Shown piece by piece: positions 13,845-21,349 of a DNA stretch of 64,000 bases. Both the position numbers and the translations under genes were made by a program. The stretch's first letter is position 1, and each line of letters opens with the position of its first letter. The stretch covers positions 370,224 to 434,223 of the forward strand of contig JAUJOY010000002.1 of the NCBI GenBank assembly GCA_030447385.1. Direction: 5' to 3'. This stretch comes from Mycobacteriales bacterium (GTDB lineage: Bacteria; Actinomycetota; Actinomycetes; Mycobacteriales; SCTD01). The notes under the pieces were generated by a model. It did no database searches, had not been told where the DNA came from, and was given only the letters and a program-made list of their open reading frames with translations.

Positions 13845-14245
13845 CGCTGCGCCACGTCTCGACCGGCACGTCCTGGGAGGAGGCCGTCGGCTACAGCCGG
13901 GCGGTGGCGGCGGGCGACACGATCTACGTGTCGGGCTGCACCAGCGTGGAGGGCGGGGCCTACGACCAGACCGTGCGAGCCCTCGGGACGATCCGGGCCG
14001 CGCTCGCCGCCCTCGGCGCCCCCATGCGCTCGGTGGTGCGCACCCGGCTCTACGTCACCCGGATCGAGGACTGGCAGGAGGTGGGCCGCGCCCACCGCGA
14101 GGCGTTTCCCGAGGCGCCTCCGGCCACCTCGCTGGTGCAGGTCGCCGGCCTGATCGACCCGCGCATGCTCGTCGAGGTGGAGGCCGTGGCCTGGACCGGC
14201 GACCTCGCGAGTGCAGCGGCCGAGGCGGAAGCGCCGACCGGGTGA
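13841..14245 (+). CDS. RidA/YjgF-family protein
   Basis: 134-aa single-domain member of the YjgF/YER057c/UK114 family. RidA enzymes hydrolyse reactive enamine/imine intermediates made by PLP enzymes. The strand pattern is typical: [19 protein letters not shown] at the N-terminus, [14 protein letters not shown] in the middle and [25 protein letters not shown] at the C-terminus, where an Arg usually contacts the substrate carboxylate. The GTG overlaps the hisA stop and the stop overlaps hisF, so it is tightly embedded in the his operon, next to PLP-dependent HisC. This subgroup may not be a true deaminase. Confidence 0.88.
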
Positions 14246-15012
14246 GCGTCGCTGTCCGGGTCATCCCGTGCCTGGACGTCGATGCCGGCCGGGTGGTCAA
14301 GGGCGTCAACTTCCGGGAGCTGCGCGACGCCGGTGATCCGGTCGAGATGGCCCGGCTCTACGACGCCGAGGGCGCCGACGAGCTGGTGTTCCTGGACATC
14401 ACCGCGAGCAGCGGCAGCCGCGAGACGACGTACGACGTCGTGCGCCGCACCGCGGAGCAGGTGTTCATCCCGCTCACCGTCGGCGGGGGGGTGCGCTCGG
14501 CCGACGACGTCGACCGGCTGCTGCGGGCTGGGGCCGACAAGGTGGGAGTCAACACGGCGGCGGTGGCCCGACCCGAGCTCCTGAGCGAGATCTCGCGGCG
14601 CTTCGGCAACCAGGTCCTGGTGCTGTCCGTCGACGCGCGGCGGGTACGCGACGGCTCGACGGCGAGCGGGTTCGAGGTCACGACCCATGGCGGCCGCACC
14701 GGCACCGGCCAGGACGCGGTGGCGTGGGCGCGGCTCGGCCAGGAGCTGGGCGTCGGGGAGATCCTGCTCAACTCGATGGACGCCGACGGCACCCGCGAGG
14801 GCTTCGACGTGGAGATGCTCGCGGCCGTGCGTGCGCAGGTCAGCGTCCCGGTGATCGCCAGCGGCGGCGCCGGCCGGCTCGAGCACTTCAGCCCCGCGGT
14901 GCAGGCCGGAGCCGACGCCGTGCTCGCCGCGAGCGTCTTCCACTTCGGCGCGCTGCGGATCGGCGAGGTCAAGGCGGCGCTGCGCGAGGGCGGGCACTGC
15001 GTCCGGGCCTGA
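14242..15012 (+). CDS. hisF: Imidazole glycerol phosphate synthase, cyclase subunit
   Basis: 256-aa (beta/alpha)8 barrel that joins ammonia from HisH to PRFAR, giving IGP and AICAR. The N-terminal [20 protein letters not shown] carries the first catalytic aspartate, and [17 protein letters not shown] carries the second. LTVGGGVRS and VIASGGAG are the phosphate-binding loops. The GTG overlaps the ridA stop. It ends the his operon proper; hisI is 4.4 kb further on, beyond the ABC exporter pair. Confidence 0.97.
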
Positions 15013-15123
15013 CCGCCGGGCAGCGGGAATCTCTGTTGCCGAGCCGGCGTCAGGACTGTGACAGTTCCATGACACTGACCGCCGCGGCCCGCCCCGGCCA
15101 CGACGGTCCCACCGAGGAGCGTC

Positions 15124-16949
15124 GTGCCCGCGCCCGGCTCACCACCGCCCGTGCCCCCCGGGGTGATCCGCCGCGGGTTGCGGATCCTGTGGACCGGCGT
15201 ACGCGAGGAGCCGCGGATCTTCGCGATCTCGGCAACGGGCAGCGCCCTGTTCGCGCTCACCACCATCGGCCAGGCGTACGTGTTCGGCGCGATCACCGAG
15301 CGGGTCATCGTCCCCGGGATCCGGGACGGCAACGCACCCGCCGCCGGCCTCGCGCTGGCCTTCCTGGCGATCCTCGGCATGACCACGCTGAAGATCATCG
15401 GCATCCTCGCCCGGCGCCTCGGCGCCGGATCATGCAGTACCGCCTCGAGGCGACCTACCGCAAGCGCGTGACCCGGCGCTACCTCGAGCTGCCGCTGTCC
15501 TGGCACGAGGAGCACTCGACCGGCGAACTGCTGTCCAACGCCAACAGCGACGTCGAGACGACCTGGTACCCGATCGCGCCCTTTCCGCTGGCGGTCGGCG
15601 TGCTGCTCATGCTCGTCACGACGCTCGGCCTGCTGCTCGTCACCGACCCGGTGCTCGCGCTCGTGGGCTCGGTCATCTTCCCCGCGATCGCGATCCTCAC
15701 CGTCCTGTACTCCCGGCGCATGTCACCGCTCATGACCCGCGCGCAGGAGCTCCGCGGCGAGGTCAGCGGCATCGCGCACGAGTCCTTCGACGGGGCGCTG
15801 GTCGTCAAGACCCTCGGCCGCGAAGCCGGGGAGACCGAGCGCTTCCGGCACACGTCGGAGGAGCTGCGCGACACCATGACCGCGGTCGGGCGGGTGCACG
15901 GCATCTTCGACCCGATGATGGAGGCGCTGCCCGTGATCGGGGTGCTCGCGGTGCTGCTCGCGGGCACCAGCCGGGTAGGCAGCGGCAATCTCGAGGCCGG
16001 CGAGCTCGTGCGCGTCGCCTACCTGTTCACCCTGCTGGCCTTCCCCGTGCGCGCGATCGGGTGGGTGCTCAACGAGATCCCCAGCAGCGTCGTCGGCTGG
16101 GACCGCGTACAGCGTGTGCTGACGGCCACCGGCGCGCAGGAGTACGGCGACCGGACCCTTCCCGGGCAGGCCCCGGCCGCCCTCACCGTGCACGGGGTGT
16201 CCTTCTCCTACGCCGACGCGCAGGTCCTGCACGAGATCGCCTTCGACGTGCGTCCCGGCCGGACGCTGGCCCTCGTGGGGCCTACCGGTGCCGGGAAGTC
16301 CACCCTGGCCTCGGTTCTCGTGCGCCTGCTCGACCCCGCGACCGGCCGCGTGGCGTACGACGACGTGGACGTGCGCGCGCTCGCTCCCGGAGCGCTCGCG
16401 GGGGTTGCCAGCCTCGTGCCGCAGTCGACCTTCCTGTTCGACGACACCGTCCGGGGCAACGTCACCCTCGACAGCGACCTGCCGGACGAGGACGTCTGGG
16501 CGGCCCTTCGGGTCGCGCAGGCCGACGGCTTCGTCGCGGCTCTCCCGGCGGCGCTGGACACGAGGGTGGGCGAGCGCGGCACGACGCTGTCGGGCGGGCA
16601 GCGGCAGCGCCTGGCCCTGGCCCGGGCGGTCGTACGCCGGCCCCGGCTGCTGGTGCTCGACGACGCGACCAGCAGCGTCGACCCGCAGGTGGAGCAGCGC
16701 ATCCTCGCGGGGCTGCGCCGCAGTGAGCACACGAGCACGGTCGTGGTGGTCGCCTACCGCCGCGCCACCATCGCCCTGGCCGACGAGGTGGTCTACGTCG
16801 AGAACGGCCGCGTCGCCGCGCGCGGCGCCCACGACGAGCTGCTGCTCACCTCCCGCGGCTACCAGGACCTCGTCTCGGCCTATGAGCGCGCCGAGGCCGA
16901 GCGGGTGGCTCTGGAGTCCACGGCCGACGAGGCGGAGGTGGCGGTGTGA
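15124..16949 (+). pseudogene. ABC exporter subunit A (heterodimer partner), one-base frameshift
   Basis: Type IV ABC exporter half-transporter split between two frames. Residues 1-102 (15124-15428) hold the first membrane helices; at 15427-15429 one base is missing, and the protein resumes in the next frame at IMQYRLEATYRKRVTRRYLELP, running to 16949. The ATPase is intact but asymmetric: Walker A GPTGAGKST, signature LSGGQRQRLALARA, Walker B LLVLDDATSSVDP with Asp for the catalytic Glu, and a switch region VVVAYRR with Tyr for His. These are features of the degenerate-site subunit of heterodimeric exporters such as TmrAB. GTG 15124 has GAGGAG four bases upstream. Either a pseudogene or an indel error; the conserved ATPase suggests recent or artefactual damage. 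Confidence 0.85.
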
Positions 16950-18739
16950 GCGCACCCGCCGCCGGCACCACTCTCGACGGCCGCGGGACCGAGCGCGGCT
17001 CGCTCGCGACGCTGAGGCACGGCATCCGGCTCACGCCGGAGTTCCGTGAGGGGCTGGGGCTGACCCTGCTGCTCGCCGTCGTGGCGACCGCCGGACGGGT
17101 GGTCGTCCCCGTCGCGGTGCAGCAGACGATCGACGAGGGCCTGCTGCGGCCAGGAGGACCCGACCTCGGGCTCGTCCGGCTCGCCTGCGGGCTGGCCTTC
17201 GTGGCGGTGCTCGTGACCGCCGTGGCCAACTACTTCACCAACGTCCGCATCTACCGCACGACCGAGAGCGGGCTGTCGGCCCTGCGGGTGCGGGCCTTCC
17301 GCCGGGTGCACGACCTGTCGGTGCTGCACCAGGCGGCGGAGCGCCGCGGTTCGCTGGTCTCACGGGTGACCAGCGACGTCGACGCGATGAGCACCTTCAT
17401 GCAGTGGGGCGGCCTGCTCGTCGTCGTGTCGACCGTGCAGCTGCTCCTGGCGACCGGCCTGATGCTCTTCTGGTCGTGGCAGCTGACGCTGCTCGTCTAC
17501 GTGTGCTTCGTGCCGCTCGCGCTGGCGGTGCGGGTGCTGCAGCGCCGGCTGCAGCAGGCCTACCGGGTGGTGCGCGAACGGGTGGGCGAGATGCTCGGCG
17601 TCGTGGCGGAGTCGGTGGTCGGCGCGCAGGTCATCCGGGCGTACGCCGTGCAGGGCCGCACCACCTCGCGCCTCGACTCGGCCGTGGACGCCGCCCGGGT
17701 GGCGCAGACGCGGGCGCAGCGCCTCGCTGCGATCACGTTCTCCTCCGGCGAGCTGATCGCGGCCCTCGCGACCGGCGCCGTCGTGGTCGTCGGGGTCCTG
17801 CTGGGTGTGGCGGGGGACATCACGACCGGCCGCCTGGTGGGCTTCCTGTTCCTCGTCACCCTGTTCATCCAGCCGGTGCAGGTCGCCACCGAGCTGCTCA
17901 ACGAGGCCCAGAACGCGATCGCCGGCCTGCGCCGCGTCCTCGGCGTCCTCGACACCCCGAGCGACGTCGCCGACCCCGGGGACGGGCTGCCGCTGCCGGA
18001 GGGGCCAGTTCAGGTGCGCTTCGAGCACGTCGAGTTCGCCTACCCGGGCGGCCGCCCCGTGCTGCACGACGTCGACCTGGAGCTCGCGCCGCGCACCCGC
18101 GTCGCGGTCGTCGGGGAGACCGGCAGCGGCAAGACGACCTTCGCCAAGCTGCTGACCCGGCTGATGGACCCCACCTCCGGGCGGGTCCTGCTGTCGGGGG
18201 TGCCGCTCGACCAGGTCAGCTTCGCGTCGCTGCGCCGGCGGGTCGTCATGGTCCCGCAGGACGGGTTCCTGTTCGACTCGACGGTCGCGGCCAACGTGCG
18301 GTTCGGCCGGCTCCCGGCCAGCGACGACGACATCACCTTGGCCTTCCACGAGCTCGGCCTGAGCGACTGGCTCGAGCAGCTCCCGGACGGCCTGCACACC
18401 TCGGTAGGGGAGCGCGGCGAGTCGCTGTCGGTCGGTGAGCGCCAGCTCGTGGCGATCACCCGGGCCTACATCGCCGACCCCGACCTGCTGGTGCTCGACG
18501 AGGCCACCAGTGCGGTCGACCCGGCCACGGAGGTGCGCCTGCAGCGGGCGCTGGACTCGCTGACCCGCGGCCGCACGACGGTGGCCATCGCGCACCGGCT
18601 GTCCACCGCCGAGGCCGCCGACGAGGTGCTGGTCGTCGAGGACGGGGTGGTCGTGCAGCGTGGCCCGCACCGCGATCTGCTCGCGCAGGACGGGCCGTAC
18701 GCCCGGATGCACGCCTCCTGGATCTCCCAGTCCCGCTGA
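16946..18739 (+). CDS. ABC exporter subunit B (heterodimer partner)
   Basis: 597-aa half-transporter: six membrane helices (about 30-320) and a C-terminal ATPase. Walker A is GETGSGKTT, Walker B VLDEATSAVDP with the catalytic Glu and the switch His in AIAHRLST are canonical, while the signature is the altered LSVGERQ. This complements the upstream subunit exactly: canonical Walker site here pairs with the canonical LSGGQ there, and vice versa. It therefore probably forms a heterodimeric multidrug or lipid exporter. The GTG overlaps the stop of the first gene. Substrate unknown; the pair interrupts the his/trp block between hisF and hisI. Confidence 0.93.
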   Translation: MSAPAAGTTLDGRGTERGSLATLRHGIRLTPEFREGLGLTLLLAVVATAGRVVVPVAVQQTIDEGLLRPGGPDLGLVRLACGLAFVAVLVTAVANYFTNVRIYRTTESGLSALRVRAFRRVHDLSVLHQAAERRGSLVSRVTSDVDAMSTFMQWGGLLVVVSTVQLLLATGLMLFWSWQLTLLVYVCFVPLALAVRVLQRRLQQAYRVVRERVGEMLGVVAESVVGAQVIRAYAVQGRTTSRLDSAVDAARVAQTRAQRLAAITFSSGELIAALATGAVVVVGVLLGVAGDITTGRLVGFLFLVTLFIQPVQVATELLNEAQNAIAGLRRVLGVLDTPSDVADPGDGLPLPEGPVQVRFEHVEFAYPGGRPVLHDVDLELAPRTRVAVVGETGSGKTTFAKLLTRLMDPTSGRVLLSGVPLDQVSFASLRRRVVMVPQDGFLFDSTVAANVRFGRLPASDDDITLAFHELGLSDWLEQLPDGLHTSVGERGESLSVGERQLVAITRAYIADPDLLVLDEATSAVDPATEVRLQRALDSLTRGRTTVAIAHRLSTAEAADEVLVVEDGVVVQRGPHRDLLAQDGPYARMHASWISQSR

Positions 18740-18782
18740 CGCAGCCTCGGCAGGCGCCACCCCCGCCCGGAACCCGTCCACG

Positions 18783-18788
18783 TACCGT
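18783..18788 (+). promoter_or_regulatory. Probable -10 element of the 59-aa protein gene
   Basis: TACCGT, 40 bases before the ATG at 18829, leaving a short leader that contains the GGAGG Shine-Dalgarno. Confidence 0.45.
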
Positions 18789-18828
18789 CGTCGTTGAAGG
18801 TCCACGACGTACCGCTTCGGAGGCTCAC

Positions 18829-19008
18829 ATGGCAGGTCTGCTCGGCAAGGTTGCTGTCTTCGCCCGCTCCCCGCAGGGACGTGCGGCGATCGCCAAGGCG
18901 CGTACGGCCGCCAGCGACCCCCGCAACCGCGCGAAGCTCGACGGGATCGTCGGCAAGGTCAAGGGCAGGGGGCGTCACCCGGGTGCGCCGGGTGAGCCCC
19001 CGCGCTGA
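18829..19008 (+). CDS. Small basic protein (59 aa), unknown function
   Basis: A short reading frame of 59 codons with an excellent start: GGAGG five bases upstream of the ATG and a TACCGT -10 element 40 bases upstream. The product (MAGLLGKVAVFARSPQGR onward) is rich in Lys, Arg and Ala, has a short amphipathic N-terminal helix and a flexible Gly/Pro/Arg tail. It has no cysteines and no membrane segment. Charge and length suggest a nucleic-acid-binding or ribosome-associated protein, but that is inference. It stands alone between the exporter genes and a repeat-bearing gap. Confidence 0.65.
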   Translation: MAGLLGKVAVFARSPQGRAAIAKARTAASDPRNRAKLDGIVGKVKGRGRHPGAPGEPPR

Positions 19009-19046
19009 GCCGCTCGCGCACCCGCACAACCGCACCTCCCCGCGGC

Positions 19047-19376
19047 GATCATGCAGCTGTTGCCCAAGGCGCACGCTCAGCAAGGAGCGCGAACTCTCTG
19101 ATCAGCGCGCGGGTGGGAAGCGGGGCCGGGCACGCACGCACATCTCGTGATCGTCTGCCTGCCCTGCCGCCGGGACCGCACGCTCAGCGGCTCCCGAAGC
19201 GGATCGCGACGTGTGCAGAGGTGCCCGCTCCACGGGGGCGAGCCGTCCCGCCCGGCCGTCTTGCGCGCTGATCATGGCGTTGTTGCACCGTCCCCACGCT
19301 CAGCGGTGAGCACGAGCTCCATGATCCGCGAAGAGGACGCTCAGCGCGCGGGCCCGAACTCCATGATCAGCGCGGG
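19047..19376. repeat. Degenerate dispersed repeats in the gap before hisI
   Basis: The 399-bp stretch between the 59-aa gene and hisI has no convincing gene. It holds repeated elements: GATCATG followed by a CTGTTG/GTTGTTG-like core at 19047 and 19269; ACGCTCAGC at 19072, 19179, 19296 and 19337; and the reverse pairing AACTCCATGATCAGCGCG at its right end (19358-19375), with weaker copies near 19091 and 19314. The GATCATG and CATGATC arms can pair across each unit, giving long imperfect hairpins. They look like degenerate REP-type intergenic repeats. Confidence 0.55.
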
Positions 19377-19407
19377 AGGGGGGGGCGCGGCCTGGCAGGA
19401 TGGCTGC

Positions 19408-19800
19408 ATGACCGGACCGGCCCGAGCCGCTGACCTCGACCCCGCCATCTCCGCGCGGCTCAAGCGCGACCAGGACGGACTGGTCGTCGCCGTCGCGCAG
19501 CAGCACGACACGGGCGAGGTGCTGATGGTGGGCTGGATGGACGACGAGGCGCTGCACCGCACCCTCACGACCGGCCGCTGCACCTACTGGTCGCGCAGCC
19601 GCAGCGAGTACTGGGTCAAGGGCGACACCTCCGGCTCGCAGCAGTGGGTGAAGTCGGTTGCGCTCGACTGCGACGGCGACACGCTGCTCGTCCGGGTGGA
19701 CCAGATCGGGGGCGCCTGCCACACCGCCGACCGCACCTGCTTCGACGCCGGTCTGCTGCCGGCCGTGGAGGGTGTGCGCCCCCGCGCCTCCGCCTCGTGA
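19408..19800 (+). CDS. hisI: Phosphoribosyl-AMP cyclohydrolase
   Basis: 130-aa zinc enzyme that opens the adenine ring of PR-AMP in histidine synthesis. Diagnostic segments are [36 protein letters not shown] and [26 protein letters not shown]; the cysteines of the latter and the Cys of RCTYW bind zinc, and the Asp cluster binds magnesium. The HisE pyrophosphatase domain is not fused. It is separated from hisF by the ABC exporter pair, the small basic protein and the repeats. It is followed by trpE after 28 bases, so it probably forms a unit with the trp genes. Confidence 0.96.
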
Positions 19801-19828
19801 GGCCCACCCGCCGCGTGGGCCGGCGGTG

Positions 19829-21349
19829 ATGCTCGGGGCGACGGTGCCCTCCCGCGAGGAGTTCGCCACCCGTACCGACGCCGTGGTGCCGGTGACGCGG
19901 CGCCTGCTCGCCGACGGGGAGACGGCCGTCGGCATCTACCGCAAGCTCGCCGGCTCGCGTACCGGCACCTTCCTGCTGGAGTCGGCCGCGCAGGGCCGAT
20001 CCTGGTCGCGGTGGTCGTTCGTCGGCGTGCGGTGCGACGGCGTGCTGATCGAGCGCGAGGGCAAGGCCGTCTGGCTGGGGGAGGGGCTGCCCACCTCCAG
20101 CGACGACCCCCTGGAGGCGCTCGTGCAGGCCGAGGCCATGCTGCGCTCGGCCAAGTCCGAGGGGGCGCCGCCGCTGACCGGCGGCCTGGTCGGCTACCTC
20201 GGCTACGACGTCGTACGCCGGCTCGAGCGGCTGCCGGCGACGGCGCCCGACGAGGTCGGGATGCCCGAGCTGGCGATGATGCTCGCGAGCGACCTGGCCG
20301 TGCTCGACCACGGCGACGCGACCGTCCTGCTCATCGCCAACGTGCTGCCGGGCGCCGACCGCGCAACGGCGTACGACGACGCGCTCGCCCGCCTGGACGC
20401 CATGACCGCCGACCTGTCCGGGCCCACCGCCGCGAGCGTCGCGACCCTCGACCTGACGGTCAAGCCCGAGGTCGTACGCCGGACGACGCGCGCGGACTAC
20501 ATGGCGGGCGTCGAGCGGGTGCGCGAGCACATCCGGGCCGGCGACGCCTTCCAGGTCGTGCTCAGCCAGCGCTTCGAGGTGGCCACCGACGTGGACGCGC
20601 TGGACGTCTACCGGGTGCTGCGCGCGACCAACCCCTCCCCGTACATGTACCTCCTGCGCTTCGCCGGAGCGCACTCGCCCTACGACGTCGTGGGGTCCTC
20701 GCCGGAGGCTCTCGTGACGGTCACCGGCGACTCGGCGGTCGTCCACCCGCCGGCGGGGAGCCGCCCGCGGGGGGGCACGCCGCAGGAGGACGTGCGCCTC
20801 GCGGCTGAGCTGCGCAGCGACCCCAAGGAGCGGGCCGAGCACGTGATGCTCATCGACCTCGCTCGCAACGACCTCGGGCGGGTGTGCCTGCCCGGGACCG
20901 TCGACGTCGCCGACTTCATGCGGGTCGAGCAGTACAGCCACGTCATGCATCTCGTCTCGACCGTGTTCGGCCGGCTGCGACCGGAGGCGCAGGCGCTGGA
21001 CGTGCTGCGGGCCGCGTTCCCGGCAGGCACGGTCTCCGGCGCGCCGAAGCCCAGCGCGATGACGATCATCGAGGCGCTCGAGCCGGCCCGCAGGTCGCTC
21101 TACGCCGGAACCGTCGGCTACGTCGACGCGGGCGGCGACATGGACATGGCCATCGCGATCCGCACGGCCGTGCTGCACCAGGGCCGGGCCTACGTCCAGG
21201 CCGGTGCCGGCATCGTGGCCGACAGCGAGCCGGCTGCCGAGCAGGCCGAGTGCGAGAACAAGGCCGCCGTGGTGCTGCGGGCGCTGGCCGCCGCCGCGAC
21301 GCTCCGCCCTGCCGGCGCCGTGCCCGAAGGGCGGCCGGACCGGGCATGA
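19829..21349 (+). CDS. trpE: Anthranilate synthase component I
   Basis: 506-aa chorismate-utilising enzyme. The N-terminal domain carries the feedback element [19 protein letters not shown], whose LLES part binds tryptophan in known TrpE proteins, so the enzyme is probably tryptophan-inhibited. The C-terminal chorismate domain shows [44 protein letters not shown] and [12 protein letters not shown]. The glutamine amidotransferase partner (TrpG) is not in the window. ATG 19829 is used; GTG 19826 is in frame and equally possible; no strong Shine-Dalgarno. The stop overlaps the ATG of the following membrane protein. Confidence 0.97.

Follow-up and report, generated by a model that had tools for sequence, protein, structure and literature searches.

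A heterodimeric ABC exporter beside hisF in a Mycobacteriales genome and a probable consensus indel in its subunit A gene

The window analysed here, a 64,000-nucleotide stretch of the Mycobacteriales bacterium assembly GCA_030447385.1 (contig JAUJOY010000002.1, positions 370,224–434,223), carries two adjacent ABC half-transporter genes on the forward strand. The first, subunit A, spans 15124–16949 from a GTG start at 15124 and is read in two frames. Its first frame (15124–15471) encodes the N-terminal part, approximately residues 1–102, and then runs through out-of-frame residues to a stop at 15469–15471, whilst the second (15429–16949) completes the transmembrane domain and adds the nucleotide-binding domain, where LSGGQ, LVLDD and VAYR are found. 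The two meet at 15427–15429, where both homologues and a coding model place a frame break and the sequence is one base short compared with all relatives. Subunit B (16946–18739) is an intact half-transporter with the motifs LSVGE, LVLDE and IAHR, whose GTG start at 16946 gives a 4-base overlap with the end of A. The pair sits between hisF and hisI-trpE (14230–21349). In 20 distinct relatives hisF is likewise found upstream of the exporter genes, and Jiangella shares the whole order hisF, A, B, hisI, trpE with this genome. Therefore, the linkage of this exporter to the histidine and tryptophan genes is old.

Both proteins match PF00664 and PF00005, each thus joining a single transmembrane domain to a single nucleotide-binding domain; for A (P0002) the match is to the second-frame piece, the N-terminal part being in the first frame. 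In fragment coordinates, A has a Walker A motif GPTGAGKST at 284, the signature LSGGQ at 387, a Walker B motif LVLDD at 408 and the switch VAYR at 441. The corresponding motifs of B (P0003) are GETGSGKTT at 390, LSVGE at 494, LVLDE at 515 and IAHR at 548. Thus, in A the catalytic Glu is replaced by Asp and the switch His by Tyr, and the signature is canonical, whilst B retains both the Glu and the His and its signature is deviant. These asymmetric motifs are kept in every relative whose fetched DNA covers them, the B signature being LSVGE or, in two distant relatives, LSAGE. The switch Tyr of subunit A, within VAYR at 16752–16763, is also retained in every relative covered. An earlier note on this DNA, made from the sequence alone, had proposed a heterodimeric exporter with complementary motif asymmetry, and the motifs, the conserved gene order and the homology to solved heterodimers all bear this out.

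A close solved comparison is the mycobacterial MsRv1273c/Rv1272c (PDB 8wcw; PMC12038006), in which two neighbouring half-transporters likewise form a degenerate and a consensus site. Its chain A matches subunit A (E 1.6e-64) and its chain B matches subunit B (E 6e-79). In that protein the degenerate site is marked by Asp497, replacing Glu, and Gln528, replacing the switch His, and the working site by Glu553 and His584; the switch residue of A is thus Tyr here as opposed to Gln in MsRv1273c. MsRv1272c has special features, such as a periplasmic helical hairpin, and the likeness drawn here rests on motifs and homology. A second relative, TM287/288 of Thermotoga maritima (PDB 3qf4), is again a heterodimeric exporter that pairs a degenerate site with a consensus one, a layout reviewed in PMC7756269. 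Its chain A (TM287) matches subunit A (E 1.7e-71); it comes from a distant phylum and is likened here by homology and overall site layout. Also close are the actinobacterial orthologues beside hisF, such as those of Jiangella endophytica and uncultured Frankineae, which share the motifs of both subunits and the gene order, are up to about 85% identical in subunit A and are all unbroken at the frame-change site. Taken together, these data support assigning the pair to the heterodimeric type IV (exporter-fold) ABC transporters with one degenerate ATP site, as an ordinary two-gene member whose assembly and export are predicted from the sequence. The kind of transporter is already known, and the motif layout is that of a textbook heterodimeric type IV ABC exporter.

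By analogy with such systems, the two ATPase domains would form a head-to-tail dimer in which the Walker motifs of A face the LSVGE of B in a degenerate site, predicted to bind ATP and to hydrolyse it slowly. The Walker motifs of B and the LSGGQ of A would then make up the canonical working site, which may power an inward/outward cycle of the kind seen in solved relatives.

The earlier note had further claimed that subunit A is split by the loss of one base at 15427–15429 and that the rest of its frame is clean. Read from the GTG at 15124, the first frame gives 102 plausible residues ending in RRLGAG and then the out-of-frame residues SCSTASRRPTASA before the stop. From 15429 onwards the second frame reads IMQYRLEATYRKRVTRRYL and stays clean until its stop at 16947–16949. 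We compared these pieces with 32 distinct homologous loci (L009–L037 and L040–L042; L038 and L039 were left out as repeats of L010 and L021), which are about 58–85% identical in protein. In every one of them (32/32) residue 102 of the first piece directly precedes residue 1 of the second within one open frame. Since the pieces join without residue loss, the deficit amounts to exactly one base, immediately upstream of 15429. A three-periodic coding model, which makes no use of homologues, places the frame change at 15427/15428; the log-likelihood gain is 23 across the 44 bases that lead up to the old-frame stop, well beyond chance. Both lines of evidence therefore uphold the claim of a one-base loss, and A has no lesion other than the frame break. 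One relative (L021/L039, G003:C161) has an irregularity of its own further downstream in subunit A, with 532 open codons and part of the query matched twice; despite this it is open across the 15427–15429 site.

Constraint on subunit A is close to that seen between intact relatives after the break (pN/pS 0.29 vs 0.26). Before the break it is 0.48 vs 0.32 over 89 codons, indicating that the 102 N-terminal residues are somewhat more divergent, a point that counts against a mere consensus error, whereas the downstream value counts in its favour. An old pseudogene is ruled out by the absence of any other lesion in A, by this near-normal pN/pS downstream and by the open frame at all 32 loci.

Three origins of the break had been put forward, namely a recent lesion, an assembly error or a programmed shift, and a comparison with other strains was suggested to separate them. 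That comparison found the same break in none of the 32 distinct loci. Because no relative shares it, the break is neither programmed nor ancient, and this part of the proposal falls away; an assembly error is favoured in light of the many breaks elsewhere in the assembly, with a recent lesion keeping a smaller share of the probability.

The evidence from the assembly comes from a sample of 864 kb of the window's genome, taken in stretches, and 796 kb of related genomes, the latter made up of 396 kb drawn from seven genomes within the family and 200 kb each from G037 and G050. Looser scans for frame junctions were too permissive, returning many matches in the genome itself and in the controls that were ordinary gene overlaps. 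A likelihood criterion was therefore adopted, requiring a same-strand frame change whose new frame outscores the old one under the coding model for at least 35 bases ahead of the old-frame stop, with a log-likelihood gain above 18. By this criterion the window's genome contains 25 abrupt unexplained frame changes at 16 distinct loci in 864 kb, and the related genomes, judged identically, contain 0 in 796 kb. At the rate of the window's genome, the probability of finding none in 796 kb is about 1e-10 by hits and 4e-7 by loci. One probable break did turn up in the control genome G009 in the looser scan, and some of the 25 may be false or may reflect genuine lesions in mobile genes, such as a transposase and a terminase-like gene. 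Measured against random positions, the breaks sit closer to homopolymers (p 0.007). The 464 kb checked for in-frame stops yielded none that was convincing. Gaps of 100 N and a single N also occur in the assembly.

Several of these frame changes are clustered. A succinate dehydrogenase flavoprotein gene (G000:C8:117003–118800; L095:17003–18800), otherwise well conserved, contains three within about 600 bp. It is flanked by intact genes for the neighbouring subunits and its pieces are 63–95% identical to relatives. Of five relatives in which the gene was followed through, four have a single uninterrupted frame of about 595 residues, the fifth (L130) being itself broken. The window's genome contains a second, divergent sdhA-like copy and so the broken gene need not be essential; its frame changes are probably assembly indels. 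Similarly, a MurJ-like gene and a neighbouring ligase-like gene (G000:C1:599709–601775; about L093:5486–7552) together contain five frame changes within about 2.1 kb. Clusters of indels in genes that are otherwise conserved, unaccompanied by nonsense changes, are the pattern expected of consensus errors and not of gene decay.

Many comparable breaks in this assembly, and almost none in related genomes, thus favour an error in the consensus, and the break at 15427–15429 is most likely such an indel. The main competing explanation, which we regard as unlikely though deserving of consideration, is a genuine break, in which one base was recently deleted and this strain was left with a null allele of subunit A. 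The printed sequence is unambiguous at the site, no homopolymer longer than 3 occurs there, and the remainder of A shows a clean frame and normal constraint, as would be expected of a very recent lesion. Against this, the number of such breaks in the assembly, several of which group together in conserved genes, with no nonsense changes to match, gives error a high prior. Were the allele null, ribosomes would halt at 15471 and a downstream restart could at most yield A lacking its first transmembrane helices; the exporter would be off, and B, coupled to A through the 4-base overlap, may be poorly made. It is very improbable that the break is genuine and tolerated, with this strain alone making A through an unconserved frameshift or as two pieces. 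A programmed ribosomal frameshift joining both frames into full-length A, which would account for their exact join without loss of a residue, is rejected as scarcely credible, given that all 32 distinct loci of about 58–85% protein identity are open and that inspection of the printed sequence shows no evident slippery heptamer where the frames meet.

In summary, the break is either an error or a lesion, and in neither case a mechanism. We favour a consensus error, under which the organism most likely produces full-length subunit A. Given the many single-base frame breaks in this assembly, other findings of broken genes there should be treated with caution, as probable consensus errors pending checks against the reads. 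As a transporter, the pair adds one further member to a well-described kind.
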